Shown here: piece by piece, positions 8,401 through 64,000 of the stretch
How the letters are laid out: each line of letters begins with the position of its first letter
Position numbering within the stretch: position 1 is the stretch's first letter
Assembly (NCBI GenBank): GCA_034638255.1
Contig: JAWPGT010000024.1
Location: 186,001 to 250,000 of the forward strand
Length of the DNA: 64,000 nt
Reading direction: 5' to 3'
From: Coprinus comatus
Lineage: Eukaryota; Basidiomycota; Agaricomycetes; Agaricales; Agaricaceae
Made by a program: the position numbers and the translations under genes
The notes under the pieces: model-generated
What the model was told of the DNA's origin: nothing
The model's input: only the letters and a program-made list of their open reading frames with translations
Databases searched by the model: none

Positions 8401-9348
8401 CACAAAATGTCCCGCATCATCAAAACGCCCAATGGATATTAAGTTTGCTGCCAGATCAGGAGTATGAAGCACATTATTTAGAATGATGTTGAACGTTTCA
8501 TTTCCTACTTTAGAGGTGAGTTTTATAGAACCTCGTCCGATTATACTGAAACGTCCATCTTCATTTGCAGCTTGTCCTTGTCGGGGTGTATTTAACAGTG
8601 AGTATGTATAAAAGTCTTCTTTCTGGGTGAAACAGTGGTCTGTGGCACCCGAGTCGGCATAAAGGAAATGAGATGTATTGGAGTCTGTAGATGTGACAGT
8701 TGTGCTCGTAATCATAACCAATCTTTTAGGATCATCTTCGTCCTCCTCTTCTTCAATCCTCCCCCTGACCATTGCTGCGAACGCCACTGCCTTCTCTACC
8801 TTCTCCGATGTATCAGCTACTGCAGCAACAGGAGTTTGTTGTACTGGTAAACTTCTCCTCATTCCAAAACCTGGAGGAAACTGACCGTCCTTCCCTCCTC
8901 CTTTCCAGTAACAATCTTGGATCAGATGTCCCTGTCTACCACAATTTGGGTTTGTGCATATCAACTTCCCACGTCCCTGTCCGACACTGTTATTCCTTCC
9001 TGTAGTTGCTTGGAATGCAGAAGTCGAAGTTGAAGTCTGCCAGTTTCCACCTACTCTTGCCCAGTGTAATTCAAGTCTTGCTATTACATCGTGTGAAGTT
9101 TTGCAGTCATATAGTGTGGCTACGATGCTGTCCCAGGACAGTGGTAGAGAGGCCAGAAGGATTGTATGGAAGTCTTGATCAGTTACACTAGCGCCCACTG
9201 CATTTGCAGTTGACCATTTGGTGCATAGGTTTGATATGTGTGCTTTTAGGTCACCTCCATCCTTGAAGTGTGTTGAATTTAGTTCGCATTGTATAGTGAT
9301 CCGTGTGAGGTCATCCCTTCTATCATATATCTTCGTTAACGTTGACCA
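5446..9348 (-). pseudogene. old Ty1/copia element, larger (3') part: late gag to RNase H
   Basis: Reverse-oriented copia polyprotein, close relative of the intact one at 19823-24241. From high to low coordinates: gag remnant from ...WSTLTKIYDRRDDLTRI, zinc knuckle CTNPNCGRQGHLIQDC, protease DSGATDHCF, integrase (HIDLWGKS, RADLGREW, NGVAERGIH), reverse transcriptase with YTDD, and RNase H (YADADYAGD, STTKAEYMAM). One in-frame TGA near 8217-8219 stands where the relative has TGG (ETWHRRF), splitting the frame into 8233-9390 and 5446-8214. The 3' end stops at FERVESTSGKR, short of the relative's last 30 or so residues, and no PPT or 3' LTR follows. The 5' end continues at 26581 across the KDZ insertion. 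Confidence 0.9.
9341..9348. repeat. left 8-bp target-site duplication of the KDZ element (GTTGACCA)
   Basis: GTTGACCA occurs directly outside the left TIR and again at 26573-26580 outside the right TIR. Removing one copy and the element rejoins the gag frame of the outer copia (EAWST | LTKIYDRR), which confirms both boundaries. Confidence 0.93.
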
Positions 9349-9483
9349 CACCTGTGGCTCCCATGATGCCTGTCTAATTAGACGTGTCATAAGGGTCTTA
9401 TGACACGTCTAAAATGAGGGGCCTGTCGGTTATGAGCCGTCCTGCTATAATCCTGCAAAATTACTGTAGGATTTCCCTAAAAA
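9349..9483 (+). repeat. left terminal inverted repeat of the KDZ element
   Basis: Starts CACCTGTGGCTCCCAT, then a hairpin, then a block with TCCTGCTATAATCCTGC and GGATTTCCCTAAAA that matches the reverse complement of 26439-26572. The segment just after the hairpin (9413-9437) is the least similar part. Confidence 0.85.
9378..9412. repeat. left terminal hairpin, 16-bp perfect arms
   Basis: Arms TTAGACGTGTCATAAG and CTTATGACACGTCTAA around a 3-nt loop (GGT). The matching hairpin at the right end differs by a paired change in both arms. Confidence 0.9.
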
Positions 9484-19739: not shown

Positions 19740-19822
19740 GGTGTGTTTCTATCTTTTAAAGAAAAACACTGCACAATAGGAACAACACCAACAAAGTCAA
19801 AAACACTCAGAAACATCACACC

Positions 19823-22800: not shown

Positions 22801-24241
22801 TGTTTTCGAATTGGTGAAGGCCCCAGACAATGCCCTGATTATCGACACGTTATGGGTATATGCAATTAAGCTTGATGGCCGTCACAAGGCTAGGTTGGTC
22901 CTACGTGGTTACAAACAAGTCAAGGGACTTGACTACGAAGAGTCTTATGCCTCCGTAATCCGTCTGGAATCACTGCGCATCTTACTTGCTGTGGCAACTG
23001 AACTCAATGCTATCTTATGGCAGATTGATTTTGTTGCTGCTTATCTCAATGCCGAAAATCCTTATCACACCTATGTTCGCCCTGCTCCAGGATATGGAAA
23101 CAATGAAGGTTTAGTCTGGCGTGCTAAGAAGTCCGTTTATGGCACAATGGCAGCAGGTCACGACTGGCAGGATGCATTATGGAAGATGTATGAAAGTTTG
23201 GGGTACTACAAGTCCATGGCCGACCCATGTATGCATTCGAGAGTACGGGAGAACGACTATACAGTGACTGGCACATACACTGATGATGTTATGGGTATGT
23301 CATCGAATGAGGATGAACAAGACAGGGCAAAGGGGGAGATGAGTGACTGTTATGAGATAAAGGATGTTACGGATGGAGGAATGATGTTAGGAATTGCGAT
23401 AGACAGAGACAGAGAAGCAGGAACAACATCGATTTCTCAAAAGCACTACATTCTCCATATGTTGAAGAAGTTCAAGATGGACGAATGCAAACCAAAGGCC
23501 ACACCACTACCTCACGGAATATTGTTAACGACATCTGAATCTCCGAAAAATGATGTTGACAAAGAATATATGAAGGACAAACCTTACCGTGAAGTATTAG
23601 GTGCACTACTTTGGTTACAAGGTGGTACGAGACCAGATATTTCATTCGCAGTGAACTACATGGCGAGGTTTCAGCAAAATCCTGGAACTGCACACTGGCA
23701 TGGTTTGATGCACATATTGGGATACCTAAAGGGGACGCTGGATTATAAGATAACGTACAAGAAGGGTGGAGGTTTGACTCCGATAGGATATGTGGATGCG
23801 GATTTCGCAGGGGATTTGGACTCAAGGCGGTCAACAGGGGGAAATATTTTCTTTATGGCTGGTGGACCAGTATCATGGAGCTCCAAACGACAACCAACAG
23901 TCGCATTATCTACCACAGAAGCCGAATATATGTCCATGTCAAAGGCGGCACAACAATCTGTGTGGATGTTTTCTTTCTTGAAGGAGATCGGAGTTGGACA
24001 GAACCCACCTGGTAAAATCTATGCTGATAACAACCCCGCTATGGCTTTATCCGAAAATCCAAAAGGTCACCAACTCGCAAAACACATAGATATCCGATAC
24101 CACTACATCAGGGAGAGGATCAAAAACGGTCAAGTTTGTTTTGAACGAATTGACTCCGCTGAAAATGTTGCGGACATTCTCACGAAACCATTACTCAAGA
24201 ACATTCACTCGAAGATGGTATTAGGCCTAGGTTTGATCTGA
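19823..24241 (+). CDS. copia Gag-Pol polyprotein, intact, 1472 aa
   Basis: One frame encodes Gag, protease, integrase, reverse transcriptase and RNase H. The N-terminal Gag has FDGTNWIVWKNNI (about residues 15-27). A central UBN2-like region has WLTLNTIYDRRDDLTRI (about 151-167). The zinc knuckle CTNPNCGRWGHLIQDC lies at 285-300 with CX4CX4HX4C spacing instead of CX2CX4HX4C. Protease DSGATDHCF follows near 381. Integrase shows HRRFAHI, CEDC, then HIDLWG, RADMGREW and NGIAERGIR. The reverse transcriptase carries YTDD in TGTYTDDVMGMSS; RNase H has GYVDADFAGD and STTEAEYMSM. Start chosen as the first ATG after the LTR, in the same context as the related old element. No frameshift between gag and pol, usual for copia. 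Confidence 0.96.
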   Translation: MTSHSPTILPDNEKFDGTNWIVWKNNIIILAQLRGAMGYLDGRIQKPKPVLSSNTTSPTSINTSTSSSKLNIPTLKPINKEATGTEKSTKQTTPSTPTPIPTPTATDWESLTPSLNEWTIRNAWGVVLINFNVKNPVGLGLKPGCDAHEAWLTLNTIYDRRDDLTRITMQRDLNSTIFRDGEDLSQHIANLRTKWSNANAVGSSISDQDFRTILLASLPPSWDPIIATLYDSQSSYDIIARLELHWVRIGKNCQNQNSNSTSAFQASTDRRNNPGQGQGRGKLICTNPNCGRWGHLIQDCYWKGGGKDGQFPAGFGTRRNLPIQQNTVAAVADGTDNVERTVAFAAMVRGRLDEDEDRIVMVTSTSVPVNSSNTSRNLYADSGATDHCFTNKADFITYSSLNSPRQGQVANENGHFSIIRQGSIRLTSKVGNNTINILLENVLHTPDLAANLISVGRFDDVGHFVTFGGGEAIFREKSGEIVMIGHGKNRMYQMDGLSIARERDQTMVMASIDKATDLETWHRRFAHIDVKRIREMETKGLVNGLKINGDKKVIGKCEDCIVSKQTARPYDAIVTPETELLERLHIDLWGRSRVASKGGAVYMMIIVDGASSYKRVIFLKNKSAEMTLAAFREFVTEAERQTGKKLKRVRADMGREWINELWDKWLRSEGIILETGAAYSHASNGIAERGIRTVIGGTRGLLSESGLPTFLWAEAARTVVYAMNYTPSSRHPGVIPAERWTGKRQNVAHLRPFGCAAYAKIPPEVTGSKLDPISIKYTLVGYQSSDVYHLYDAGSQQVVTARNIVFEEGVGNRTIMMEEKSGDLSILDDFTSSDEMLNQDDVGISGVVKPPTAFAPKHRPTDKPLHPKISNDTSQTATRETEHMQDESDSDDSSESSFQTAESPTPGPVLPQPSRPLTICIPACPAKFENRHSSRPHMPSWKAREGTFMAETKENVTRGRSEAPKSYSKAMRQDPVIWKEAMDKEMSMMKEKDVFELVKAPDNALIIDTLWVYAIKLDGRHKARLVLRGYKQVKGLDYEESYASVIRLESLRILLAVATELNAILWQIDFVAAYLNAENPYHTYVRPAPGYGNNEGLVWRAKKSVYGTMAAGHDWQDALWKMYESLGYYKSMADPCMHSRVRENDYTVTGTYTDDVMGMSSNEDEQDRAKGEMSDCYEIKDVTDGGMMLGIAIDRDREAGTTSISQKHYILHMLKKFKMDECKPKATPLPHGILLTTSESPKNDVDKEYMKDKPYREVLGALLWLQGGTRPDISFAVNYMARFQQNPGTAHWHGLMHILGYLKGTLDYKITYKKGGGLTPIGYVDADFAGDLDSRRSTGGNIFFMAGGPVSWSSKRQPTVALSTTEAEYMSMSKAAQQSVWMFSFLKEIGVGQNPPGKIYADNNPAMALSENPKGHQLAKHIDIRYHYIRERIKNGQVCFERIDSAENVADILTKPLLKNIHSKMVLGLGLI

Positions 24242-28353: not shown

Positions 28354-31282
28354 TTATTCCTTATTGTACGGAATAAATACATCCCAAAAATCATAATTCT
28401 CTTTTTCATCGACTATACACAGACACCCTGGTAGAAAGATATAACATGAGTTCCCTGAGCCCACAAATTTCCCAACTGGACAGTGTGTCCGACTCTTATC
28501 TTCCCACATTTGTTTAAGAATTGAGAAAAAGTGTGCCATCTCCTCTGAGTCAGGATATCCACAAAGATGTTCAAATTGACCACAGCTTATTGAATCATAC
28601 CAAGTTTGCTGTTCCAAGGTCATATCCTGCAATGACATGTCAGCCCTCCACGCCAAACAATGACCAGGATGATTGGTTTTGTACACACACTGTATAACAT
28701 GATTATGTCCTCCTTCTCCTCCTCCTCAGTATCTCCACATCTGTAAACCACAGCCTCTCTGAAAACATCAATTTTTTCCATTTTAATCTCCTTGGCATCC
28801 ATAAACACATGGAAAAGCTCAGGATCTTGGTTGTGAAACTCCGCCACCTTTGCGAGTAAGGCAAAGAAAAATAAGTACATCAGTTTTTCCAGTGCTGAAC
28901 TATAAATCTATCTAAACACTCACCAAATAATAGACCGATTTCATGAATTCCATTTTCTGTTCAATTCCAACGCTCCACATAGGTACAACCGAGAAATCAA
29001 AGTTATGGATAAAACTTTTTAGTGTAAAAAAGATCGAGTGATCTTTATCGGCGACACCAATGTCATCCATGTACCGAAAACAGTAGTATAACATATCAAA
29101 TTTCGCCTTAAAGCACAAGTCAGGCTCTTCAAATGTAGTGGTTAGTTTGATGTTATCCACTTTAAATTGTCCATCTGGATCTAACGAATGCGTGAGTAAG
29201 AGCTACGGTGACTTGAAATTTGATCAGTAACCTACCGTCCATGACTTCATGCAGGATCCGATGCAAACCCGGGACATATTCTTCGCTCCCGCTCATGCAT
29301 CCAATGAAAAATGGGCCAGAGCGAGATCCATCGTCTAGATAGTCCACAAAGGACCTATGTCCAACAAAAGGTAGATACAAGTGGGCGGAGTAATGCTTGG
29401 CATAGGATAGCACAGAATTCAACTTGTGAAGAGAACTGCGTATTTGATGTATCGGAAGTTGAAGTAGGTTACTCACGTCACTGAAAGACTCGAGGTTGAT
29501 CACCGGATCCATAATCCTAATAGATAGTATTCGTTTTGTGAGGGGAAAGATGTCGTCTGGAACAGTGGACATGATAAAGGTGTAGAGAGCATCCAGATCT
29601 GCAAAGGGATTTCGCTTTCTTTCCGAGTCCTTTTGGTTCCTCCTCGCATTCTCGATACCGTCAATGACCTGGTTCAAGAGTGTAACAGGGTCCCGATAGT
29701 CCACATCATCAATAAACTTTATCACTGTAGAAGCAAAAGCAAAAAGACCACCGGCATAACTGGCAATCGTCAGGAACTGAGTCTCTGTTGGCCATTGATG
29801 TGGATTGGGAATAGAATGAGAATTCCTATCACGAATTTCTTCAAATTCAGATCGTAGGTACCGTTCAACATCAGCACATGATTCATCCGAGTCAACCTCG
29901 ATCTCGTCCATGTCATAAGTTGGTAATATCTTCGGGCGAGTAAACATGGCTTCTATGTGTGATTCGGGACGACTGCTGACAAGCCAAAGGAGAGGAGCAG
30001 TTGGATGGTCGGACACAAATGTGGAAATGAGTTCAATGATTTCACATTGCGCTTTCTCTCCTTTGCACTCGTCAAGTCCATCTAAGATGATGACGATTGG
30101 TTGAGTATCAGTGTGCAACTTCATATGAACAAATGGTTGGGTGATAAAGTGGAAGAACTGGATTTTCATTGATCGTTCAGGAAGAATGGGATCTTCATTG
30201 AGCTTCGACAACAAATATTGTCGGTATGGCGGGTAGCGTGCATATAGCTGGTAAGCGATGGTGGTGAAGAGTTGTTTAGGGTCACTACGACCTCCAGTTG
30301 AGTCAGATCTCCAGAAAAAAAATGCCGCTCCTGGCTTCACAGCTGGAGGAGAGAATAGGGATTCTGCGATTGATTGTAGAACAGCAGATTTGCCAACACC
30401 TGCAGGTCCTTTCACCCAAAAGAACGGTTTCTGTCCACATCCACGATTGAGAATCCATTCACGTAATCGTTCCCGAAGACAGACTCGGGTGTCGGGATGG
30501 CATTTAGGAGGCGGGTTACGTTCTGAGGAATCCACGTCAGCACCGCGAACAGTATATTTGAGCAGCATCTTCAAAGCTTAGGAATGTGAGGTGTCAGAAG
30601 TTATGTAGTAACCGCAGTTTTTGAGATTACTCACTCCTGTTATCAGTATCGGTTGTGTGTTGGCAATTATTTGATACCATTGTTGGGTTATTTATTACAA
30701 AGTCGTGAGATTGAGCAAAGAATGTATTTGAAGGGGGGAGACTCGAATTGGTCGTGTTGGATAGTTGACCAGGTTCAGTGGTAGCAAGTGGGAGGCAGTC
30801 TCTTGCATTTTGTTGGTTTCCTAATACTAGAACTAATTAGTACAATCCTGAGCTTAATGCGAAATCAGATTGACTTACTCGTTGAAGTAGTTTCGGGCAC
30901 CTCGGACTCGTTGGACTCAGGCTGTGCCTCGGAATTTCCTACACCGGCTGGGCCTTTCAGCCAAAGGAATGACCTCCTGGAACGTGAATATGTATTGTTG
31001 ATCCAGTTTAGAGTCCACTGTAGCAGCGGTTGATTATGTTCGGGCAAGTTAGAGTTCGTGCCTGAGGCTACGCAGCTGAGAGGGGTAATGTAGTAGCATT
31101 GGTATAGACAAACGATACTTACTTGAAGGGTTACTGGTGTATGAAAGAGAGGAAACATTGCTTGTTTGATGTAAAGTATCATTTTCATTCCCTAGCTGAG
31201 GTTCACTACTAAACGTCTGCGAACGTTGAGGCATATTACTATGGCCATGTGCGAGGCTCTGGCCGTAGTACGGTAGAGGCAT
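28354..31282 (-). CDS. NACHT STAND (NLR-like) protein, copy 1, first NACHT domain deleted
   Basis: Signal-transducing NTPase of the fungal NLR class. ATG at 31282 (MPLPYYGQSLAHG), leader exon, then a first NACHT cut off within its P-loop (FLWLKGPAGVG joined to NSEAQPES). The complete second NACHT lies in 29162-30574: NPPPKCHPDTR, Walker A GPAGVGKS (residues 56-63 of that exon), Walker B IVIILDGLDEC (160-170), a sensor-like LWLVSSRPESHIEA, then a helical arm. C-terminal exons continue to 28354 (IPYNKE stop) and show no WD40, ankyrin or TPR repeat. Introns near 29161, 28860-28925 and 28623-28684 keep frame. Likely role in non-self recognition or cell-death signalling is inferred from the family. 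Confidence 0.8.
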
Positions 31283-34648: not shown

Positions 34649-37600
34649 TCATTCCTTGTTGTATGGAATAAGCACATCCCAATTATTACAACGCCCACTT
34701 CTATCAGGTATATGCAGATATCTTGGTAGATAGATATAACATGAGTTCTCTGAGCCCACAAATTTCCCAATGTGACTGAGTGTCTGACTCTTATCTTCCC
34801 AACTTTGTTTAAGAATTGAGAAAAAGTGTACCATCTCCTCTGAGTCAGGATATCCACAAAGAAATTGGAATGGATCACAGTTTATTGAATCATACCAAGT
34901 TTGCTGTTCCAAGGTCATATTCTGCAATGACATGTCAGCCCTCCACACCAAACAACAACCAGGATGATTGGTTTTGTACACACATCGTATAACATGACTA
35001 TGCCATCCTCCACTGAAGTGAAGTCATATCGGTAAAACACAGCCTCTCTGGAAACATCAATTTTTTCCATTTTAATCTCCGAGACATCCATAAACACGCC
35101 GAAAAACTCAGGATCTTGTTCGCGAAAGTCCTTCACCTTTGTGAGTAAAGCAAAGAAAAATAGGTACATCAGTTTTTCCAGTGCTGAACTATAAATCTAT
35201 CTAAACACTCACAAAATTATAGACCAATTGCATGAATTCTATTTTCTGTTCAATTCCAACGCTCCACGTAGGTAAAAGCGAGAAATCAAAGTTATGGATA
35301 AAATTTCTTAGAGTAAAAAACATCGGGTGATCTTTATCGGCGACAGCAATGCAATGCATGTACCGAAAACAATGGCACAACATATCAAGTTTTGCCTTAA
35401 AGCACAAGTCAGGCTCTTCAAATGTAGTGGTTAGTTTGATGTTATCCGCATTAAATTGTCCATCTGGATCTAATGAACGCGTGAATATAAGAGAAACAAT
35501 TTAAACTTCATGGTGACTTGAAATTTGATCAGTAACTCACCGTCCATGACTTCATGCAGGATCCGATGACAACACGAGTCATGTTCTTTGCTTGCGCTGT
35601 CGCGTCCAATGGAAAATGGGCCAGAGCGAGATTCATCCTCGAGATAGTCCACAAAAGACTTATGTTCAACTTGAGGTAAGTTGTTGGACTTGGGCTCAAA
35701 CTTGGGGTAGTGCAGCACAGAATTCAACTTGTGAAGAGAACTGCGCATCTGATGCATCGGAAGTTGGATAAAGTTGCTCAGCTCACTATCATCTAGTTCA
35801 GAGAACAACCTATTTTGATACAATATTACAGACAGCATTCGTTTTGTGGTGGGCAAAATGTCATCTGGAACGGTGGACATGATAAAGGTGTAGAGAGCAT
35901 CCAGATCTGCAAAGGGATTTCGCTTTCTTTCCGAGTCCTTTTCGTTCCTCCTCGCGTTCTCAATACCGTCAATGACCTGGTTCAAGAGTGTAACGGGGTC
36001 CTGATAGTCCACATCATCAATGAACTTCATCACTGTGGAAGCAAAAGCAAAAAGACCACCGGCATAACTGGCAATCGTCAGGAACTGAGTCTCTGTTGGC
36101 CATTGATGCGGATTGAGAACGGAATGAGAATTCCTATCGCGAATTTCTTCAAATTCAGATCGTAGGTACCGTTCAACATCAGCGCATGATTCATCCGAGT
36201 CAACCTCGATCTCGTCCATGTCATAAGTTGGTAATATCTTCGGGCGAGTAAACATGGCTTCTATGTGTGATTCGGGACGACTGCTGACAAGCCAAAGGGT
36301 AGGGGCAGTATGATGATCGGATACAAATGTGGAAATGAGTTCAATGATTTCACATTGCGCTTTCTCCCCTTTGCACTCGTCAAGTCCATCTAAGATGATG
36401 ACGATTGGTTGAGTATCAGTGTGCAACTTCATATGAACAAATGGTTGGGTGATAAAGTGGAAGAACTGGATTTTCATTGATCGTTCAGGAAGAATGGGAT
36501 CTTCATTGAGCTTCGACAATAGATACTGTCGGTATGGCGGACAACGCGCATATAGTTGGTAAGCGATGGTGGTGAAGAGTCGGTTAGGGTCACTACGACC
36601 TCCAGTTGAGTCAGATCTCCAGAAAAAAAATGCTGCTCCTAGCTTCGCAGCTGGAGGAGAGAATATGGATTCTGCGATTGATTGCAGAACAGCAGATTTG
36701 CCAACACCTGCCGGTCCTTTCACCCAAAAGAACGGTTTCTGTCCACATCCACGATTTTGAATCCATTCACGTAATCGTCCCCGAAGACGAACTCGGGTGT
36801 TGGGATGGCATCTAGGAGGCGGGTTACGTTCTGAAGAATCCACGTCAGCACCGGGAACAGTATATTTGAGCAGCATCTTCAAAGCTTAGGAATGTTGAGT
36901 GTCAGAACTTGTGTAGTAACCGCAGTTTCCATATTACTTACTCCTGTTATCGGTATCGGGTGTTTGTTGGTAATTATTCGATACCATTGTTGGGTTATTT
37001 ATTACAAAGTCGTGAGGTTGAGTGAAGAAGGTATTCGAAGGGGGGAGACTGGAATTGGACGTGTTGGATAGTTGACCAGGTTCAGTGGTAGCAAGTGGGA
37101 GGCAGTCTCTTGCGTTTTGTTGGTTTCCCAGCACTAGAACCAATTATCACAATCCTGAGCTTAATACGAAATCAAACTGACTTACTCATCGAAGTAGTTT
37201 CGGGCATCTGGGACTCATTGGACTCAGGCTGTGCTTCGGAGGGAGCTACTACCGGCTGACTGTTTGGTATTAGCTCTCCAGAATTTCCTACAGACAACGA
37301 TGACATGACATTGGAGGAAAAGGAAACAGTTGCTATGAGTATGTATGAGCCAATGAAAGATGGGCTAGACTCACTGTATTGTGTACTCATACCCCCCGTT
37401 GAACCCAACCTCAAGTGGTAATCATCAGAAACAGTGGGAATATCTTTTGTCGCATAAATTGGTTGGATGATTGTCAACGAAAATGAAGCAAGTAGATGAG
37501 GCTGTGGACGGCTGCTGATAATCCAAAGGAAGGGTGAGAAAAGGTGGTGCTGCACGAAAGACGAAATAAGTGCAATGATCTGGCATTGATCTTGTTCACT

Positions 37601-40783: not shown

Positions 40784-43700
40784 TTATTCCTTGTTGTACG
40801 GAATTAACACATGCCAAGGATCACAGCACTTTCTTCCTCCATAGGATATACACAGATATTGTGGTAGATAGATATAACATGAGTCCCCTGAGCCCACAAA
40901 TTTCCCAACTCGACCGAGTGTCCGACTCTTATCTACCCAACTTTGTTTAAGAATTGAGAAAAAGTGTACCATCTCCTCTGAGTCAGGGTATCCACAAAAA
41001 TAATCTGATTCATTACAGCTTATTGAATCATACCAAGTTCGTTGTTCCAAGGTCATATCCTACAATGACATGTCAGCCCTCCAAGCCAAACAACAACCAG
41101 GATGATTGGTTTTGTACACACATCGTATAACATGACTATGCCATCCTCCACTGAAGTGAGGTCATATCCGTAAAACACAGCCTCTCTGGAAACATCAATT
41201 TTTTCCATTTTAATCTCCGAGACATCCATAAACACGCCGAAAAACTCAGGATCTTGTTTGCGAAAGTCCTTCACCTTTGTGAGTAAAGCAAAGAAAAATA
41301 AGTACATCAGTTTATCCAGTGCTGAACTATAAACCTATCTAAACACTCACCATATTATAGACGAAATTGATGAAATCCATTTTCTGTTCATTTCCAATGC
41401 TCCGCATAGGTAAAACCGAAAAATCAATGATCGGGATAAAATTTCTTAGAGTAGAATAGGACGGGTGATCTTTATCTTTGTAATGACTGTAATACATGCC
41501 GTGCAAACAGTCATATAACATACCAAATTTTTCCTCCAAGCACGAGTCTGGCTCTTCAAATACAGTTGCTAGTTTGATGTTATCCACTTTAAATTGTCCA
41601 TCTGTATATAATGAACGCATGAGTAAAAGAAACAATTCAAACTTCATGGTGACTTGAAATTTGATCAATAACTCACCGTCCATGACTTCATGCAGGATCC
41701 GATGATAATACGAGTCATATTCTTTGCGTGCGCTGTCGCGTGGAATGAAAAATGGGCCAGAACGACATTCGTCCTCTAGATAGTCCTTAAAAGACTTATG
41801 TTCAACTTTAGGTAAGTTGTTGTACTCGGACTCGGACTCGGACTCGGACTCGGCGAAGTGTAGCACGGAATTCAACTTGTGAAGAGAACTGCGTATTTGA
41901 TGTATTGGAAGTTGCAGAAAGTTGCTCAGATAAAAATGATTTGGTTCATGGAACAAGCCTAGATGCAATATTATAGACAGCATTCGTTTTGTGGTGGGTA
42001 AGATATCGGCCGGAATGGTGGACATGATAAAATTATAGAGAGCATCCAGATCTGCAAAGGGGTTTCGCTTTCTTTCCGAGTCCTTTTGGTTCCTCCTCGC
42101 ATTCTCAATACCGTCAATTACTTCGTTCAAGAGTGTCACGGGGTCCCGATAGTCCACATCATCAATGAACTTCATCACTGTGGAAGCAAAAGCAAAAAGA
42201 CCACCGGCATAACTGGCAATCTTCAGGAACTGAGTCTCTGTTGGCCATTGACGCGAATTGGGCATAGAACATGAATTCCTACGACGAATATCTGCGAATC
42301 CAGATCGTAGATACCGTTCAACATCAGCGCATGATTCATCCGAGTCGATCTCAATCTCGTCCATATCGTAAGTTGGCAATACCTCCGGGAGTGCAAATAC
42401 GTCTTCTATGTGTGATTCGGGACGACTGCTGACAAGCCAAAGGAGAGGAGCAGCTGGATGGTCGGACACAAATGTGGAAATGAGTTCAATGATTTCACAT
42501 TGCGCTTTCTCCCCTTTGCACTCGTCGAGTCCATCTAAGATGATGATGATTGGTTGAGTATCAGTGTGCAACTTCATATGAATAAAGGGTTGGGTGATAA
42601 AGTGGAAGATCTGGGTTTTCATTGATCGTTCAGGAAGATTGGGATCTTCATTGAGCTTTGACAACAAATATTGTCGGTATGGCGAGTAACGCGCATATAG
42701 TTGGTAAGCGATGGTGGTGAAGAGTCGGTTAGAGTCACTACGACCTCCAGTTGAGTCAGATCTCCAGAAAAAAAATGCTGCTCCTGGCTTCATAGCTGTA
42801 GGAGAGAATATGGACTCTGCAATTGATTGTAGAACAGCAGATTTGCCAACACCTGCTGGTCCTTTCACCCAAAAGAACGGTTTCTGTCCACATCCACGAT
42901 TGAGAATCCATTCACGCAATCGTTCCCGAAGACGGACTCGGGTGTCAGGATGGCATCTAGGAGGCGGGTTACGTTCTGAGGAATCTACATCAGCACCGGG
43001 CACAGTATATTTCAGCAGCATCTTCAAAGCTTAGGAATGTTGGGTTTCAGAACTAATGTAGTAACGGCAGTTTTTGAGATTACTCACTCCTGTTATCGGT
43101 ATCAGGTGTTTGTTGATAATCATTCAATACCATTGTTGGGTTATTCATTACAAAGTCGTGACATTGAGGGAAGAAGGTATTCGAAGAGGGGACACTGGAA
43201 TTGGTCGTGTTGGATAGTTGACCAGGTTCAGTGGCAGCAAGTGGGAGGCAGTCTCTTGCGTTTTGTTGGTTTCCTAGTACTGAAACTAATTATTACAATA
43301 CTTTGCTTTAATACGAAATCAGATTGACTTACTCGTTGAAGTAGTTTCGGGGATCTCGGACTCGTTGGACTCAGGCTGTGCCTCGGAAGGAGCTATTACC
43401 AGCTGACTGTTTGATACTAACTCTCCAGGATTTTCTACTGGTAAACCATGTGGAGGAAAAAGAATTAATGGTGGTTATGAGTCTGTACGAGTTAATGAAA
43501 GATGGACCAGACTCACTATATTGTGTGCTCACGCTCGCGATTGAACCCAAGTGACCCAAGTGGTAATCATTAGAAACAGCAGGAATCTCTTTTGTCGCGT
43601 AAATTGGTTGGATGATTGGCAACGAAAACGAAGCAAGTAGATGCGGCTGCGGACGGCTGCTGATAATCCAAAGGAAGGGTGAGATCGGGTGGTGCTGCAC

Positions 43701-53834: not shown

Positions 53835-56000
53835 TTACAGATTTAACCCCTGTAAAATCTCTTTGTATACTACATTTACTGTTTTATACCTCTCTTCTTG
53901 TTCTGGTAACAATACTTTGATTTGACCCACAGATGTACACCTTGAGAGAGCAACATATAATTGTCCATGTGAGAATACTGCTGTTCGCAGATTTATTCCT
54001 ACTGTCCTAAGTGATTGTCCTTGAGATTTATTGATTGTCATAGAGAAAGCAAGACAGATGGGAAATTGGGTCCGCAAAAGTGGAATGGGAAGAACGTCTG
54101 CTGTTGGCTTCAACTTTATTCTTGGAATCATTGCTACTCTTCCTTCAAACTTTTCATCTGTACTAATAATCTGACATTGAAGTACCTTTTGAAACACTCT
54201 CAGAACTACCATTCTTGTTCCATTACAAAGGCCATTTGATAGATCAAGATTCCGAAGAAGCATAACCAGGCAACCAATTTTGAGATCTAGCTTTGCAAGT
54301 GGTAAACCACTAACATTAAGAGAGCATAGATATTCTGGTGGATATGGTTGATGTTGGTTTAATGTTGCATTGTGTAGATTCACAGTATCATGACTGTAAA
54401 GGGTGTGGATATCACCTGGAAATTTATCTAATATTGATGCATTGAGATCATCAACATCATCATTCCTAGCAGCAAGAATTGTGTGGTGGAGGAAATATTC
54501 TGGTGGTTGGGGTATTTGAATAAGGGGATATATGAAGTGAATTAATTCTTCCAGTGTTTTACAACACATTTCTTGAGGTAGTGTGATGTTTTCAAGATTA
54601 TCCAAATTTTTTCCAGCACCAATATCTAAAAGCCACCATGCATGTTCCTCACTACCAGCATCTCTTTCTAATCTCATATTTTGAGTCAAATAAATGACTG
54701 AGATCTCTCTCCAAAGATTACTCCTACAAAGAGATGCTGCTATAATATCTTGTCTTGACCCATGAGTTACTACAGGAAGTGTTTGGTGAAAATCTCTACC
54801 AAATACTACAGTAATTCCTCCAAATAAAGTATTACTCTATATAAATGAAGTTAGTAAATATTGAGTTTAACTTTTATAAAATTAACTTACATTAAGTAAA
54901 TCTCTAAGACACCGATCTACAGAGGTAATAGCATATTTATGTTGCATTGGTACTTCATCCCAGATAATAACTTTTGTTTGTTAGAGTACTTCATGAATAA
55001 GTAAATCCCTTTTTAAACTTGCAACTGAGGTTTCATCAACAGGAATAGGAATCTTAAACCTAGAATGTGCAGTTCTTCCTCCCTCAAGAAGTAAAGATGC
55101 AATCCCAGATGATGCAACACATAAAGCAACTTGTCCCTGTGATTGGACCTTAGCTGCAATTGTGTTACATACAAATGTTTTCCCACATCCACCTGCACTA
55201 TGTATAAATGCCAACCCTCCATGTCCTCCATTTATATACTCTAAAACCTGATCAAAAGCCAACTTTTGTTCTGCATTAAACTTGTTGTAATTTTCATCAA
55301 CAGTTTGATGTAGTTGTTCATTATTGTAGTTGAGCTCTTGTGCTAATATATAGTTACGTCCTATATCATGCCATGGCTGCCCATTTCGACCTTGGGGTAA
55401 AGGCATAGGAGAGAAATTTACTAAGCTCTGCCCTGATTTCATCAACAGTTGATTGATAAGATGAAGTCCAAAATCATAATACTCCTCTTGAGTAAACTCT
55501 TGATTTTGATAGATAGGCATATGTTCCAAGTGAAATCGAAGATCATCACACATCCTACCCTTGAATTCTTGCCACAGCTGTTCAGACTGAGTAGGATGAC
55601 CATGAAGTAGAATAATAACAAACAATCTTCTCAGTGACTCTCCTGTTTGAACCTGTGCTCCTTGTGTTAAACATAACACCCATTCTCTACCATCCTCCAG
55701 TAAGCCTCTCACTGCACATGCCTCTTTATATGTCTCATAAACAACTCCTTCAAATGTTCATAAATGTTCAAAAGTAGCTCCAGGAACAACTGTTAAAAGT
55801 AGCTGAAGATAAAACTGTTCACCTTGAGCAGGTGATGCGAAATACATTCTTCCAATTGCATAGCCTCTCTGTCGTGTTTTCCATTTTTTTTGTTGATTTT
55901 ACAAAGGTAAATGACTTTGGAAAATCTTGATAAAGTACTGTTTGAGCTTCTTCAAATTCCTGATTAGCTTTGAACCATGCAGTAAGTGTTATGACCACAA
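53835..56000 (-). pseudogene. Helitron-type Pif1-like helicase, C-terminal part, broken
   Basis: Superfamily 1 DNA helicase as found at the end of Helitron RepHel proteins. Visible: TAWFKANQEFEEAQT, YAIGRMYFASPAQGEQFYLQ in a shifted frame, a stop after TFEHL, GLLEDGREWV, FNAEQKLAFDQVL, Walker A AGGCGKTF, VASSGIASLLL with GRTAHSRF, a TAA after LIHEVL (about 54980), Walker [12 protein letters not shown], an intron (about 54840-54890), FGGITVVFGRDFHQTLPVV, LTQNMRL, and the C-terminal TINKSQGQSL and LYVALSRC. The Rep/HUH half is absent. An LTR fragment joins the 5' end. Not functional as seen. Confidence 0.85.
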
Positions 56001-56258: not shown

Positions 56259-56410
56259 TTTAGTAGGATCCTACTAAAGGTATGAGTTCTTTAGTAGATT
56301 TTTACTAAACATATGTGTTCTTTAGCAGGATTCTACTAAACATACAACTTCTTTAGTAGGTTCCTACTAAATATATATGTTCTTTAGTAGGATTCTTCTA
56401 AAGACTCAAG
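56259..56410. repeat. five tandem 31-bp units, each a palindrome
   Basis: Units start at 56259, 56290, 56321, 56352 and 56383. Unit 1 begins with a perfect palindrome TTTAGTAGGATCCTACTAAA; the others are close versions (TTTAGTAGGTTCCTACTAAA, TTTAGCAGGATTCTACTAAA), separated by variable 8-nt pieces and a constant TTC. Confidence 0.92.
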
Positions 56411-56464: not shown

Positions 56465-59400
56465 TTACTTCAAAAGATTCAATATTCTACTTCTGTTCCA
56501 TAATGATAGAAAAACTGCAGTATATATAATTGCTCTTTCTTGCCCCATATATCTAACTGATTTTCTAATTCTTGTAAGTCCTCCATTTCCACATTCTGCT
56601 GCACTAGAGTTGATTTTTCCTAATGATGGTTGGCTAGAAGAATATGTTTTAAGAAAATAGGCTGCACTACAAGATTTATGACCTGTAGAATGAAAATTAT
56701 CAATGAGAAATAGGGTATCCATAAAAAAGTCTGGCTCCCTTGAACGACAATAAGGTCCAAGCTGGCAAGCAAAATCATAAATAACATATTTGGGAGCTTT
56801 TGGCCATCTTGTAACCATTGCTGAAAATACATCATTTCTTCCTTCACTTGAAGGAATACAATGATATCCATAGCAAATAGAATGAGTGCACCATGCACAC
56901 ATAATTCCTCCAGTTAAGCCAGATTCTCCATAAGTGCTGTAATATTTATTACATTTTCCACCTCTGTCTTTTGGCTCATTTCCAGCTTCATGTTTAAGAC
57001 CAGGATATTGAGGTCTATAACGATTTGGGGTAAACTATATTTACATCCACTCTATAGAAATTTAGTAAAAAAAATAAGGCAGTTATAATATAAAAAATAC
57101 CTTTTGCCATCCACCTTCAGTTTTTTCAATATTATCTATAATCTTGGGACAAGGATATTTTATTATCTTTTCCACCAATCCTTTACATCTTTTGTTTATC
57201 CAAGAACAAACCCCAAGAATAGAGTTATCCCAATATGGTTGTTGTTTTCTTTCATAGTTTAGAAGCCAAAATAACGATGGAATACAACACAAATGATCAA
57301 AATTTGTTTTTTGGGTAGGATCATTGATAAAGTCTTCCAATAATGTCAATGCTGGTCAGTTAATAACTTGAAGAGCAGAGTCATTACTTCCTAACTATTG
57401 AATATGAGAATAGTATTGGTAACAGTTAATCAAGAATTGATAAAATACCTGGTAAAAAAATGAAACAACTTCTTTTGGACATTGATTATTATGTTTTGTT
57501 ATTGCACTTGTAGTGCAATATCATTTAAAAAGTAAACCCAAAGATTGGTTTTCTTTATTAAGCATATCTTGAAGGATAGGGAGATTTTCAAGTCTTGTAA
57601 TTAGTTTTTGAAGATTTTTGGTAATTGTGGTATGAGATTCATCCTCAGAAGAATCATTATCAGAAAGCAAGTTTTTGGAAGGAGGAGTAAGACATAAAGG
57701 TTCTGAAAATGTAGATCTTAATAGTTTTCCTCATAGGTAGGATGTACTTTCATATATTCTTGTTCACAGGAACATTTGGAGAAATTGTTCAAGGAAAGAA
57801 GAGGTGGAAGGTTGGTAACAGGAGGTGCTTCAGAATATAGGGCAATATTGTCAGTAGGAATCCAGAATGATAAAGGAGGTAATATAGGTTGATATGAAAT
57901 GGGTTTATTGTCTTTAATCCTCATAATAGGAATAGAAAGATTATCTAGAGATAAACCTTATTAATAAATCATAAAATGTTTAATAAATGTTTTCACCTCT
58001 ATTATTAGGATCTTGAGATACCAAAAATCCATTTCCATTGAAATAGAGTATTGATCTTTGTATATGAGTACACTTGGTTCCAGGATCTTTGTTGCAACTC
58101 CAAGTTCCAAGACCATTATCAGGACCCTTATAAGAAGTAATAGTGTGACCTTTAACAGAGTTGGGATCTTTTTTTGATGATACTGAAAAAAGATTAAGAA
58201 ATCCAAATTCAATCCTTTCTTGTAGGAAAATAATAACATCAGAGTCAATATCTAAAATATAACTTGAGTTATGAAAAAATAACTTTAGAATAGAATTTAA
58301 CCTTCAGGATCTTCAAACTTATTAGGATATTGTAATAAAAATCTTGTATGAACGCAGTTATTGGTTAATATTCCTTGACCACAATAACAAACAGGTATAG
58401 GAGGGCTTGAAGAATAATCCATTTGTAAATGAAACCATTGATCCTATTATAGGTTTAGAAATGGAATGTGTTACGAACCGACCCAGACCAGTCCAGATCA
58501 CCACCACTGAAGAAGACCTATTCGAGCTCTTCCCTGAACTTATCCCCACGGAGGGTAACCCCATGGACTCCACAGAATAATGGAGCAACCTCTGCTCTGC
58601 ATTATAGTGATCACTATAAGGTTTCATTCTGGCCTGTCGCCAAACTAAGTATAGTTTCCATTATGCTTAGAATACATTCCTCCTGTTGCTATTAATAGTT
58701 CTCTCCGCTCCATCCATTCTTGTTGACAGCTCTTACATTGTATATAGAATGGTACTGTTATCTCGTCTTGATCCATAGCTCCTGTTGGCAACTCTTCCAT
58801 TGCATACAGAGACTTATTCCCATTTGTGAAGGTGGTACAATGTATTAGATATATTTAGTAGTCAGTAGCTATTTATAGGTACATCCATAAATAGTATAAA
58901 TACTCTATGTATTAAGTGATTAAAGCCTTAAGCTTTAATCTCTTCTGTCATATCCCTTATACATTTGTCTCCATACCCTTTGGTCACCAGAGCGAAAGGC
59001 CTTTGGATTGCAGCAAGTGTTTATTGAAAGCACATTCCCAAATGACTGCACCCTAGCATTTAAGTTCCAGGGGTGTTCAGCTTAACATTTCGTGGTCATA
59101 ACAGAATGTATTATTTAAGTATTAATACATACCTTTAGAATAGATGATTTTGCATCCCAACCTGGAACAATATATATATTTGATGTAAGTCGATGGAAAG
59201 GAATTGCCTTAGTTAAAACTCCATTGACAAATTCATCATAGGTATCTTGAGGAGTTGGTAGTCCAAATATATCATCTTGTATATATTGATCTGGTACTTC
59301 AGGCTCTGAAGATAGATTAAAGGTAGGTATACCAGTTATTGTAAGATGATCAAAAGGTTTAGAAAGTTCTTGAGATGTGGATTTAAAAGAAATAGATTTT

Positions 59401-59646: not shown

Positions 59647-60771
59647 ATGTCTTCTTCCAGACAATGTCGTCCAACTCAAAAGATCCTTGATACTCCTATT
59701 GGTATTAAAAAGACCCGTTGTCCTCCTACATGTCATATATGCCCAAATAGACCACTTAAAAAGAATTGTGGATGTAGTGGGAAAAAAAAGGTAAGGATTC
59801 TTACTTCACAGGTGAATTTTTACTTTTATAAATGAATAGGTCTAATATTTTAATAGGAAGTATTGGAAAAAGCATTAGTAGATGGACAAGAAGAGGAAGG
59901 AAGTCTGGAATTGAGAGATGATAGTCCAGAGGAGGATAATATCTCTCATCATGATTCTCCTACTCCTCAAACTGGATTACAATCCTCATATATTCCAGTT
60001 CCAAGAACTCCGTTATCTGATAGAGAAATGAGAAACTGGTCTGAAACACCAGGAACCGAAGATTCAAGAGGCTCAACAGACTATGATGATATTGATAATG
60101 ATTCAGATAACTCATCAACTCCAACAGTCTCAACTATGAATACACCAACTCCTGGAGGAACAGGAAATTTATTTGGTAAAAAAGGGGGTAATAAAAGTTA
60201 TAGTAATGGATTGGGCTATGTAGAAGGTGCAATGAAAGGAAATCAAAAATGGGGTATGTTTTTTTGTTATTATTGAATAATAATAAAACTAAGAAAAGAT
60301 AGAAATAAAACACCCAAGAGAATTAAGACCTTTAATCCAAGATGCAACAAGACGAAGTAAAAGATATAATCATTTACTTCCCAAGTTAATAGAATCAGTA
60401 AGTAATGCCAAAATCTTATTAAACTATTAATAATAAAATTTTCTTTATAGGTAGAACAGTTTGCCCAAGAAACTGATTCATATACTATTATTCTTTCACA
60501 ACCATCAAGTGGTGCACTTATGGATGCACATTATAGTTCACCAAGATTAAGAAGAGAAGGAAAGGAAGAAACAATTGAGTTTATTGAGAAGTTTCGGCAA
60601 ATGGTTAATACTATGGTAGTTGCAAGGAGGGGGGATACAAAAGGATTGGCAAAAGATTTGGATAAGGCAAAAAAAGAAGTAGAAAAAGCAAAGGAGGAAA
60701 TATTAAAAAAAGATGAGCTTTTGGAGGAATTAAGAGCTAAATTAGCAGAGATAGAAAAGCAGACATCTTAG
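59647..60771 (+). CDS. coiled-coil protein, KDZ/Helitron-neighbourhood gene
   Basis: ATG at 59647 (MSSSRQCRPTQKILDTPIG). The N-terminus has a Cys cluster (CPPTCHICPNRPLKKNCGC) that may bind zinc. Four exons; introns at about 59791-59858, 60255-60300 and 60400-60451 (GT...TAG) keep frame. Middle: acidic, Ser/Thr/Pro-rich. Then RPLIQDATRRSKRYNHLLPK, ETDSYTIILSQPSSGALMDA, YSSPRLRREGKEETIEF, and a C-terminal coiled coil rich in K and E (KDLDKAKKEVEKAKEEILKK and on). No stop. Similar proteins are common and unnamed in mushroom genomes. It is divergent from the broken KDZ-related gene and convergent with the PHD gene, so all three may be one element's cargo. Confidence 0.65.
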
Positions 60772-60850
60772 ATATCTTAGTAATAAACCAAACAGCAACA
60801 TTTGTTTCATTTTTTTAAACTAAAAAAACAACTTTCAACAAACAAAAAAA

Positions 60851-62543
60851 CTACAATGTAAAAAACGTTTTATCAATGGTTTCTCCTCTTAAATTCTCAT
60901 ACCTATAAAACCAAAATCCAAGAATCCTTCCCATCCCTGTATCCTGGTTTCCTTTCATAAGACCCAGTTCAGTTGAACCTGGCATAGGATAAAATGTTAT
61001 AGTATTATTACAAGTAGCATTACCACAAGATATGGTAATGGGCAATAAATGTAGGATAGAAAATAAGTAGATATCAAAGATAAAAACAAAGATCTTACCC
61101 CAGCTGATATTCTTTAATTTTGTAATAGGCTTGTCATCTTTATTCTTCCTAAGAACCCATGGTTTAAAAACATGACAAGAATAACAGGAGTTTGGAAGGT
61201 AATGGCCAAGTGGCTGGAATTATTTATTACCCCAATGAAGGAAACAAATTTCATCTGAGTCTTTCTTGATCAACATTATACAATCTGTACCAAGTCCAAG
61301 ATCAAATTCAGAGTAAAGAATATTGGGAAAAAGGTTTTTGCTGTCCAAGATAAGTGTTTGTTGGAGAAATCGGAGGATAAAGAGATTGCAGTTGACAGGG
61401 TGAAAATCAAGTTGTAAAAACGCCATAGAAAGCCAAAAGTATCTAGTAAAATAATAAGATAGGAGATAATAATTAAAAATAATGCTTATGGAGATACAAG
61501 TTGATGAAGGTCAGCCCTATCTTTTACCGAGAGAAAAGGACCACCACACATAATAAAAAACAAAAGGGCTGTTTCATCTTTCTGAATTATTTTAAGTAAA
61601 GATGGAGGGAAAATGATTGGAAATAACTAAGAACATTATTAGTATATGAAAAAAGAAAAAGAGTAAAATCTATACCTCAGAAATTGGAACAGCCTCCATG
61701 TTGGGAGGAGGATCAACCCAAATAAGCCCAGTATCAGGAGTAGAATGTGTATGGAGGAAAAAAATATAATGTTTGAATCTAAATAAATAGTTAGATAATT
61801 TTATTTCTGAATATTAAAATAGAAAATTACTTCTTTAGTTCAGTACAAAGCTTCACAATTCTCTTTTTGAGTTTCTCAACTGCAGTATCTGCAGATAGAT
61901 CAATTTTAATTTCAATTAACTCCAAATAGCCATAAGGAGATCCTTTAGATCTTGGAAAATAGGATAGGAGATGTCCATAAGCCAAAGTAGAGACACATGA
62001 TTTTGGGTTGAGAGATGAAAGTCGAAAAATAACAATGGCAGTATTATCGATATTAACAGTTGAGAACTTGGACCGAAATAAGATATTAGACTGGAGTGGA
62101 AAAGTTTGATTGAGATTTTCGAAAGGCTAAAAAATATCTGATTAGGTTTGGAATATCAATAATTAAAAATATGAACCTTATATGGAGCGTAGTCTCCATT
62201 AGTCTTAATCCAACATTGAGGGCAGGTAAACTTCTGCTTTAAGTGTTGTCTTTCCAAGTTGGGAAGACAAACATCTCTACAGATTGCACCATCACAAGTA
62301 TCACAAAAGATAAGATCTCCACCATTCATACAAAGAGAACAATACTAGATAAACATGTAAGTTAAATGAAAACAATAAAGAAACATATTATACAATGTGG
62401 TCATTTGTAGAAGTTGTGGTCTGATGGCTTGAAGTAGTAGGACCATCAACTTCCATAGAATCATCTTCTTCAAGAGAAGAAAGATCACCATCAAAGAGAT
62501 CAATACTGTTGAGAGAGAGTTTAGAACATTTTCGAGGAGGCAT
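60851..62543 (-). CDS. PHD-finger-like protein with C-terminal zinc ribbon
   Basis: ATG at 62543 (MPPRKCSKLSLNSIDLFDGD). An acidic leader, an intron (about 62345-62393), then a PHD-like finger: YCSLCMNGGDLIFCDTCDGA, ICRDVCLPNL and FTCPQCW. More exons: LQSNILFRSKFSTVNIDNTA, SYFPRSKGSPYGYLELIEIK, KLKKRIVKLCTELKK, FLHTHSTPDTGLIWVDPPPN, ALLFFIMCGGPFLSVKD, LGTDCIMLIKKDSDEICFLH, CYSCHVFKPWVLRKN and a last Cys pair in SCGNATCNNTITF before the stop at 60851. The order (finger, central hydrophobic domain with CGG, end ribbon) matches an unnamed family in mushroom genomes. Exon borders in the middle are approximate and an undetected frameshift is possible. Confidence 0.6.
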
Positions 62544-62600
62544 GATGGTGGTACAAGTTAGAGAATGAAAGATATAATCTTGAAGTATTTGAATCAAAGA

Positions 62601-62625
62601 TCAATCAATCAATCAATCAGTCAAT
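62601..62625. repeat. TCAA microsatellite
   Basis: Five to six copies of TCAA with one G substitution, 55-80 bp upstream of the PHD gene start. Confidence 0.9.
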
Positions 62626-62738
62626 AGCTATAAAAGGAATCTTATATTGAATTTAACACAGAGATGCTTAAAGAAGAAATATGATATTAAAATATATTTC
62701 ATTATAATATAATAGTTACAAGTGCAAAAAAATGGCAT

Positions 62739-62755
62739 TTAGGGTTAGGGTTAGG
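62739..62755 (+). repeat. interstitial telomere-like tract (TTAGGG)
   Basis: TTAGGGTTAGGGTTAGG, just under three units. TTAGGG is the usual telomere repeat of filamentous fungi. Confidence 0.9.
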
Positions 62756-63332
62756 ACGACATTTTAGCAAAAAATTATATACATTCAAAATACAAGTCAA
62801 GAAGAAGATTAAAAACACTTTCAATAAGAAGTTTGAGCTAACTTCATATTAAAAGTGAAAATGAAACATATACTACTTGTGGGTGCTCAAGCCACAAGGA
62901 ATACATGTTCCAAAAGAAATGTATACTATGAAAAAAATACTATATACAACTACACTACTTTACCTAAGACCTTGGAATGATGAATCAGTATTAGAAATAA
63001 AGAACAAGTAAAAGAAACATCACCTTAAAGCTTGTAAACCACAAACCACAATTTCGTGAACAACCTGAAATCCCAAATACATCAGTTGTCTAACAAATAA
63101 AAAGTTGAACTTACATTTCTATTCTAAATCTCTCCCACCCAAGAAAACATAGAAAACACTGATTAGAATAGAATAGATTAACAGACTGACACTCACCAAG
63201 TTTATCAACACCCAACACCTATCCCAACAATCTATCAGACAAGCCAAAAGTTAGATAAGTAGAATTGAAATAGAAGTACTTACAAAAACGGATGTTTAAC
63301 CATACTGAAGATGAAGACACAAGAAGAAATCA

Positions 63333-63739
63333 TCCCTCCTCCCTTGTGAACAAGAGAACCCTTGAAACACGAAGTCTCAAGGCACATTAGAGTGGACAAT
63401 AGATAGCCCCCAGACCCAGAACAACCACCTACCTCCTCCAAAGAAGGGGTATCTTGGAAGTACGAAACCTCCAAGCACATAAATGGTTATTGAAAAGAGA
63501 ACACACCATCTCTTCCTGCAAACAGGAAGAACCCTGGAAGTACGAAACCTCCAGGCACATTGATGATGATAATAATAAAGGGACAACTCAAGGACCATCC
63601 TTCTCCTGCGAACAAGAGAAACCTTCACAACACGAAGTCATGAAGCACATTGAATGGCAAGGGACAACCCACACCCACCCCTCCTCCTGCGAACAAGAGG
63701 AACCCTGGAAGTACAAAACCTCCAGGCACATTAGGATGG
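63333..63739. repeat. five tandem three-way-junction units with covarying stems
   Basis: Units of about 79-93 bp: 63333-63396, 63423-63488, 63507-63565, 63595-63657 and 63675-63739. Each has a closing stem P1, a stem-loop P2 with a YRAA-type loop, a stem-loop P3 with outer 6-bp arms, inner 2-bp stem and loop ACRAA, then the constant linker CACAT. P3 arms: CCTTGA/TCAAGG, CTTGGA/TCCAAG, CCTGGA/TCCAGG, CTTCAC/ATGAAG (one mismatch), CCTGGA/TCCAGG. P3 inner pair: AC/GT in units 1 and 4, GT/AC in 2, 3 and 5. Loops and linkers are conserved while stems change in pairs. Either strand could be the active one. An ORF crosses the array but shows no protein family. Confidence 0.85.
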
Positions 63740-64000
63740 AACAGCATAAGAACAATGATATCAACGCCAGCTCTACGTTTCCGAAACGAGCGGCAAGTCA
63801 ACATGTGTCCCTATGTAACGAAGACCTTTCAAAGAAAGGTAACACCAGTACCACACACAATCATGTTCATAGCTGGGGCCCTCAGCATGAATGAAGATTA
63901 TGACGCAGGGCTGCCTCTGGTGTGACATCGTCAAGGTAGAAGAATAAACGGGAAGACTGAAATAAAAATACCAAGAATAGAAGTAACTTTACATTATAAA
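63740..64000. other. non-coding tail of the window
   Basis: No gene recognised. Two more small hairpins are visible: CGTTTCCGAAACG near 63776-63788 and ACCTTTC/GAAAGGT near 63824-63840, which might be a sixth, decayed unit. Confidence 0.4.

Follow-up and report, generated by a model that had tools for sequence, protein, structure and literature searches.

The locus analysed here raises the question of why a stretch of a mushroom genome keeps five neighbouring copies of one fold while the letters of their stems differ, in which molecule the fold is kept, and to what larger unit the copies belong. We addressed it by computational analysis of a window of 64,000 nucleotides from Coprinus comatus; coordinates without a prefix refer to this window, and those with a contig prefix (C24 and the like) refer to contigs of the same genome.

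Results

Five tandem three-way junctions and their fold

A tandem array of five units, proposed in a first-pass annotation, lies where it had been placed, and a repeat search groups the units as one family of five. The features are as follows.

63333..63739, minus strand: array of five three-way-junction units, defined by minus-strand fold and covariation; unit 5 comes first in the RNA sense
63675..63739, minus strand: unit 5, with P1 CCAUCCU/GGGGUGG, joint AAUGUG, a 9-bp P3 with loop UUUGU and an 8-bp P2 with loop UUCG; z -4.5
63594..63658, minus strand: unit 4, with P3 CUUCAUGAC/GUUGUGAAG, paired via G-U; z -4.1
63504..63568, minus strand: unit 3; z -6.2
63423..63488, minus strand: unit 2, with one bulge in P2; z -3.8
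63333..63395, minus strand: unit 1, with one bulge in P1 and a possible outward extension of P1; z -2.4

The five units of the window are 58-82% identical in pairwise comparison, and the array is missing from the TRF listing, presumably because the copies are too diverged. On the minus strand each unit runs through P1, a joint, P3, a linker of two letters (a single letter in unit 2 as predicted), P2, and P1 again without a gap. P3 has 9 bp and a UUYGU loop in all five units. P2 has 8 bp in three units, 7 in unit 1 and 9 plus a bulge in unit 2, and its loop has four letters, or three in unit 2 as predicted, while P1 has 7 bp in four units and 6 plus a bulge in unit 1. The joint reads AAUGUG, or UAUGUG in unit 2; the constant linker CACAT that had been noticed after P3 corresponds to the conserved joint AUGUG on the RNA strand, identical in 5/5 units. 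A model built from the five units (R1) scores them at 66.7-85.2 bits, which is a match by construction.

Paired changes and one-sided wobble pairs point to minus-strand RNA

Folded as minus-strand RNA, the region reaches -166.8 kcal/mol (z -7.2), compared with -103.9 kcal/mol (z -3.5) for plus-strand RNA. The stems had originally been read on the plus strand, and that assignment gives way to the better supported minus-strand fold. Two of the irregularities in the plus-strand reading are thereby removed, as the minus strand has U-G pairs where mismatches had been met in P3 of unit 4 and P1 of unit 5; unit 1 keeps its bulge in P1. Windows of 160 nt across the array gave minus-strand z values from -0.4 to -4.2, so local stability alone would miss parts of it.

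In the alignment of the five window units, 14/22 pairs carry changes on both sides. Standard pairing was observed in 96.3% of the 108 cells between units, a level reached by 0/500 shuffles, and fell to only 53-62% once the 3' partners were slid by one to three columns. The covariation count is conservative because the unit alignment puts P1 of units 1 and 2 out of register. When the single-unit structures were predicted, all 119 pairs were standard, 18 of them G-U on the minus strand, and one G-U pair was retained in 5/5 units. With the equal-length units 3-5 placed in one frame, 61 pairs are Watson-Crick, 11 are G-U on the minus strand, and 0 would be G-U on the plus strand. Stem changes between the units are thus paired, the opposite of what would speak against the proposed structure. 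This disfavours ordinary minisatellite decay and upholds the earlier proposal that the structure is under selection. Covarying stems, which are expected of a conserved structured RNA gene, were found both between the units and in the outer stem of a domain compared between two families (A and B, below).

Paired changes can also arise without selection by template switching. The array could accordingly have a DNA-level origin, with palindromic arms kept by template switching or gene conversion, or with cruciforms or single-stranded DNA, and with no RNA function; long palindromic terminal repeats are borne by the same element. However, template switching restores Watson-Crick pairs and erases wobble pairs regardless of strand, yet 18/119 pairs are G-U, with a split of 11 to 0 in units 3-5, and a TATA block and splice sites flank the array on the same strand. 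One-sided wobble pairs are hard to obtain by DNA template switching and thus point to minus-strand RNA, and we consider an origin at the DNA level very improbable. A plus-strand structure, whether of RNA or DNA, was rejected given the weaker plus-strand fold and the 0 plus-only wobble pairs in units 3-5. The initial proposal of "RNA or single-stranded DNA" is narrowed to its first half: the one-sided wobble pairs and the same-strand splice sites favour minus-strand RNA, and single-stranded DNA is disfavoured. We are highly confident that the array is a structured minus-strand RNA.

Variation among copies of the array

DNA searches of the genome returned 14 copies of the sequence (family A), some of them broken or partial, and all 14 were aligned. 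Across these copies 1504/1508 stem cells are still paired. Variable sites amounted to 31/407 in the array, 4/82 in the 5' domain, 5/123 in 62787-62909, 7/189 in the PHD exon and 60/320 in exon 1. With CpG sites included, stems varied at 7/238 sites and loops at 16/86 (P 9e-6); after CpG removal the counts were 7/237 and 2/71 (P 1.0). Conservation of stems over loops among recent copies was dropped as evidence, as the difference is gone without CpG sites. Selection on the stems is suggested by how the units, and likewise the families, diverged at an earlier time, not by the recent copies.

Units have been lost in copies C6, C27a and C65, unit 4 carries a 10-nt deletion in C24b, and unit 4 of C82 does not fit the unit pattern; the full set of five is therefore not indispensable. 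The unit pattern has 64 matches in this genome, 59 inside the 14 family-A copies and 5 elsewhere. We take the latter for chance matches, as a reversed control gives 4.

The array lies in a KDZ transposon with a TET/JBP gene

The following features place the array in a mobile element.

56259..56402, no strand assigned: 31-nt palindromic repeats belonging to the terminal repeat array at the left end, with related repeats in C27a
56465..57034, minus strand: KDZ-type transposase exon (PF18758 24.7 bits, cut-off 26.6)
62156..62344, minus strand: PHD-like zinc-finger exon of a neighbouring element gene (PF00628 E 0.0016, 18.9 bits, cut-off 24)

The element is a dispersed repeat of ~17 kb. In copy C27a it measures ~16.8 kb, and each end there carries repeat arrays that are related and occur in both orientations. 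The window copy starts near 56259 in the palindromic repeats, is interrupted by interposed sequence, resumes at C24:252851-259800 and ends at ~C24:259800, beyond the window. The transposase exon scores just under the Pfam cut-off and has 444 homologues. The PF18758 domain was found in part of the 120 listed, at 61-77% identity, and the named homologues among the matches listed come from mushrooms such as Mycena, Pluteus, Collybia and Lentinula. A TET/JBP gene was found inside the element, above the cut-off of 34.9 bits in C27b and C78 (54.1 bits each) and below it in C27a; the window's own copy, taken with its frame neighbours, scores 35.3 bits against the same cut-off. Because a KDZ (Kyakuja-Dileera-Zisupton)-type transposase and a TET/JBP gene occur in one element, we assign it to the TET/JBP-bearing KDZ transposons.

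The element also holds an RRM exon that scores above its cut-off, with RBMS proteins nearest among solved structures. This RBMS/MSSP-like exon (L030:2867-3646) is on the strand opposite the RNA gene described below, between it and the TET/JBP gene, and may derive from a captured host gene. The element ends, as seen at the left of C27a (L029:1438-2623) and at its equivalents, consist of ~145-bp palindromic repeats in both orientations and in variable number. At C24:251041-251140 (L009), beyond the window, there are GC-rich nested palindromes CCCGTAACCGTATAATACGGTTTACGGG (z -3.4 on the plus strand and -5.5 on the minus strand), near the point where the window copy and C93 diverge from most copies. 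Some 630 bases of the window copy (58474-59100) are missing from that position in ten other copies and present in C89 and C1, a pattern as for a small inserted element. The stretch C99:25000-27500 was found to be unrelated.

Other parts of the window were read by eye. Two ORFs at 53835-55757, near the left KDZ end, resemble a PIF1/Helitron-type helicase. Three similar long minus-strand ORFs (29162-30577, 35470-36885 and 41339-43030) share the P-loop GPAGVGKS and look like a local gene family of NACHT/NLR type. ORFs for Copia-type polyproteins are seen at 19760-24241 and 5446-9408, and one of them stays open for 1493 aa.

A putative spliced RNA gene around the array

The array is surrounded on its own strand by the following features.

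64361-64367 equivalent, just beyond the window, minus strand: apparent TATA box, from the aligned copies
63957..64000 and on to C24 250010 (= 64010, beyond the window), minus strand: putative intron A, GTGAGT...TTTCAG, 54 nt
63284..63956, minus strand: putative exon 2, with the 5' domain, hairpins and the array; splice-site sequences at both bounds in aligned copies
63842..63923, minus strand: conserved 5' domain, with outer stem ACACCAG/CUGGUGU, GCCCUGYGUCA, apical loop AGGGCCC and UGUGUGGUAC
63747..63816, minus strand: long imperfect hairpin between the array and the 5' domain, from the fold of 63735-63956 (z -2.2 for that whole stretch)
63232..63283, minus strand: putative intron B, GTAAGT...TAG, 52 nt
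63159..63196, minus strand: possible, uncertain intron C, GTGAGT...CAG, 38 nt, read from the sequence, with its donor side seen in the alignment
62816..62910, minus strand: 3' domain of two long hairpins (62864-62910 and 62816-62857), from the fold of 62739-62910
62739..62755, plus strand: telomere-like motif TTAGGGTTAGGGTTAGG, separating the RNA gene from the PHD-type gene

On the RNA strand, the TATA block GGCCATATATACC (C24:250359-250371, beyond the window) precedes the array by 0.6 kb; it is kept in 13/14 copies, being missing in C83, and only 1 site varies among the surrounding 46. Intron A has GT and AG in 14/14 copies, with 1/54 sites variable. The GT donor of intron B occurs in 11/13 covering copies and reads AT in C24b and C96. 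Against shuffled sequences, exon 2 folds with a z of -6.5 (20 shuffles) and 62739-62910 with a z of -5.3 (0/200 shuffles), while the 5' domain alone is modest (z -1.3 in family A, -2.4 in family B). Arguments from promoter, splice sites and ORFs suggest that the array-bearing gene is transcribed, spliced and noncoding, and we are fairly confident that the array is part of a gene borne by the element.

The motif TTAGGGTTAGGGTTAGG, with two to three telomere repeats, was found in 13/14 aligned copies, the 14th ending short of it; the chance expectation for TTAGGGTTAGGG is 0.01 occurrences in the window. It is located ~110 nt upstream of a TATA-like block of the PHD gene, at the edge of the only block of this region (62739-62866) matched in family B by DNA search, and might act as a promoter element bound by a factor that recognises telomere repeats. 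The CR4/5 domain of telomerase RNA is a three-way junction as well, and the array gene is near CCCTAACCCTAA on the same strand. Unlike CR4/5, however, the array has five copies and a 9-bp P3, is multicopy in a transposon and has no Rfam match, and unlike in telomerase RNA the template-like repeat is found 3' of the junctions, adjoining the promoter of another gene. We rejected telomerase RNA as an identity for the gene, despite CCCTAACCCTAA on the same strand, as the order, the copy number and the neighbouring promoter do not fit.

A sister family has the gene without a recognisable array

The 62739-62866 block, which holds the second 3' hairpin, matched eight other loci at 69-71% in a DNA search. 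We refer to these as family B and, at three of them (C33, C89 and C26), compared 951 adjacent bases. All three stretches have a TATA block followed by a domain of the same architecture as the family-A 5' domain. No alignment between the two domains was obtained with blastn, and yet both contain GCCCUGYGUCA, the identical loop AGGGCCC and UGUGUGGUAC. The outer stem is ACACCAG/CUGGUGU in family A and CAAGUAG/CUACUUG in family B, so that 4/7 pairs have been replaced by other pairs and 3/7 are the same. The family-B domain is followed by a splice donor TTGTAAGTG, comparable to that of intron B. When this genome was searched with the 5'-domain pattern, 22 matches were obtained, of which family A accounts for 14 and family B for 8, with 0 in the reversed control; a DNA search with the family-B sequence found 12 loci.

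No array unit was detected in family B, either by pattern matching or with R1, which gave at most 4.4 bits in the three stretches (185 C33 bases before the 3' block excluded). In C33 the 3' block has a transposase-like stretch of 79% identity ~2.6 kb away, arranged and oriented relative to it as in family A. The RNA gene and the 62739-62866 block remain neighbours in family B. Since family B has the gene without a recognisable array, the array is best read, from the two families compared, as having expanded within an RNA gene that is itself conserved.

Coding and leader explanations of the array

We considered whether the array is instead a coding exon whose pattern reflects an encoded repeat protein, one of the cases named in the first-pass annotation as overturning the structural reading. 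On the plus strand the ORF 63403-63894 is open through units 3-5, encodes a repeated SC[KE]QE[EK]P motif and has a PF08469 match of 17.8 bits, below the cut-off of 22.3. On the minus strand the longest ORF in 11/14 copies spans intron A and has 84-87 aa, and in both families the frame is open at the EGP and VWY codons conserved in the 5' domain. However, the plus-strand ORF runs full length over the array in 6/14 copies only, and none of the four ORFs tested reaches a curated Pfam cut-off. The frame of the 5' domain is not kept, because the spacing between the starts of the first and second motifs is 28 nt in family A and 29 in family B, and the six shared EGP and VWY codons show no synonymous (wobble) difference between the families. 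The 84-aa ORF found no homologue in one search, which is weak negative evidence because that search requires shared 5-residue words and similar length. With the broken plus-strand ORF and the sub-threshold Pfam scores, a coding exon is disfavoured, and we regard it as the least probable of the explanations weighed here.

The main rival to a scaffold RNA (Discussion) is that the array acts in cis as part of a long, spliced and structured 5' leader of the downstream PHD-type gene, whose start codon is at ~62543, controlling translation or export of its mRNA. The array and the PHD gene are in order on the same strand, introns B and C fall between them, and the RNA gene and the 62739-62866 block are adjacent in family B as well. 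On the other hand, the PHD gene has a TATA-like block of its own, TTTTATAGCTATT, ~90 nt upstream of its ATG (with a one-letter change in C65, C96 and a few others, by eye), the compact hairpin domain with a z of -5.3 is interposed between it and the array, and scanning through so stable a leader would be hard. We judge the leader explanation rather unlikely, and retain a separate noncoding gene as the preferred reading.

Comparison with known structured RNAs and transposons

An Rfam search of 60000-64000 at E up to 10 returned five matches, all below threshold. The array and the 5' domain had none of these, while IBV_D-RNA fell on the 3' hairpin (19.4 bits against a threshold of 35). The family-B loci L277 and L278 gave no Rfam match at E up to 1. 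These searches bear on the possibility that each unit is a small ribozyme, self-cleaving or otherwise catalytic, and the array a multimer processed into monomers by cleavage. A three-way junction with an AUGUG joint identical in 5/5 units and nearly fixed loops would suit a ribozyme, and the tandem copies resemble multimeric ribozyme repeats. Yet, in addition to the absence of Rfam matches on the array and in family B, the hammerhead core CUGANGA is absent from 5/5 units on reading, as had been noted from the start, and the predicted structure has zero unpaired nucleotides between P2 and P1, leaving little room for a catalytic core. We consider a ribozyme improbable. The analogy with three-way-junction ribozymes such as the hammerhead, drawn earlier, finds no support in these results, and assignment to the hammerhead or another Rfam family was rejected.

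Self-cleaving structured RNA motifs do occur in repetitive DNA, as in retrozymes and schistosome W elements, which are hammerhead-bearing repeats. The array differs from them in having neither a hammerhead core nor an Rfam match and in being carried by a DNA transposon with a transposase. Outside this genome, the unit pattern matched 91 stretches in viral contigs and at least 118 in prokaryote genomes; R1, run on 80 of the 91 and 80 of the at least 118, gave 16.9 bits at best, compared with 66.7-85.2 for the units themselves. The 5'-domain pattern had zero matches in viral contigs.

Kojima 2025 (PMC12730594) described KDZ DNA transposons (Kyakuja and Zisupton) that carry TET/JBP, and the element studied here resembles those presented there in its KDZ-type transposase, in having TET/JBP in the same element and in the mushroom hosts of the named homologues. 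It differs from Kyakuja as characterised in that work, which has 7-bp duplications, CA..TG ends and no TIRs, in that C27a has inverted repeat arrays at both ends, which argues against membership of the Kyakuja subgroup. The terms "noncoding" and "non-coding" are absent from the main text of that article. Two screens for structured RNAs in fungi (PMC5640933, 2017, and PMC8216456, 2021) are alike with our analysis in that RNAs were recognised by comparing fungal DNA. The 2021 screen covered ascomycete genomes and aimed to leave out transposable elements. Junctions presented in the two papers include an HDV-ribozyme joint, a motif of two stems and a 3' UTR structure with four stems, and the word "tandem" does not occur in their main texts. 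Among the literature matches listed, going by titles and the beginnings of abstracts, such an RNA is undescribed in KDZ or other cut-and-paste elements. We rate the RNA as representing a new class, that of a structured RNA borne by a cut-and-paste transposon.

Discussion

Computation establishes the structure of the array, its strand and its place in the element. Our overall reading, which we hold to be the most plausible with moderate confidence, is that the array belongs to a gene for a noncoding RNA and that this gene resides in a KDZ DNA transposon with TET/JBP. The gene would be transcribed from the minus strand, starting from the TATA box at the equivalent of 64361-64367, and its transcript would be spliced, with the array in exon 2. 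In the predicted fold of the RNA, a row of five three-way junctions stands between a 5' domain and a 3' domain of hairpins. Tandem duplication inside the gene, in one transposon family, would have given rise to the junction units, and selection would then have kept their fold.

For the function of the array we can offer a tentative proposal, namely that it provides five equal binding sites for one protein and that the transcript acts as a multivalent scaffold. A scaffold with added sites is favoured because there are five equal tandem junctions with near-identical loops and joint, and because a sister gene lacks them. Such a scaffold would gather a protein of the element or of the host, either at the element itself or at its transcripts; one purpose might be to keep the element active or unmethylated. 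The data suggest that the RNA does a job so far undescribed.

We hypothesize further, as an unlikely but specific possibility, that the RNA is a dedicated partner of the KDZ element, forming an RNP with the PHD-type, RRM-type or TET/JBP protein that would be needed for mobility or escape from silencing, the array amplifying binding sites and having evolved in one family. We know of no RNA component of a eukaryotic cut-and-paste transposon; a dedicated KDZ partner, if confirmed, would be one.

Structured RNAs of this kind can escape screens that avoid transposable elements and basidiomycetes, like the 2021 fungal screen (PMC8216456). Eukaryotic cut-and-paste DNA transposons are viewed as protein machines acting on DNA ends, whereas here the element would also invest in RNA. 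The RNA gene would offer a concrete object for studying how such elements recruit proteins or evade DNA methylation.
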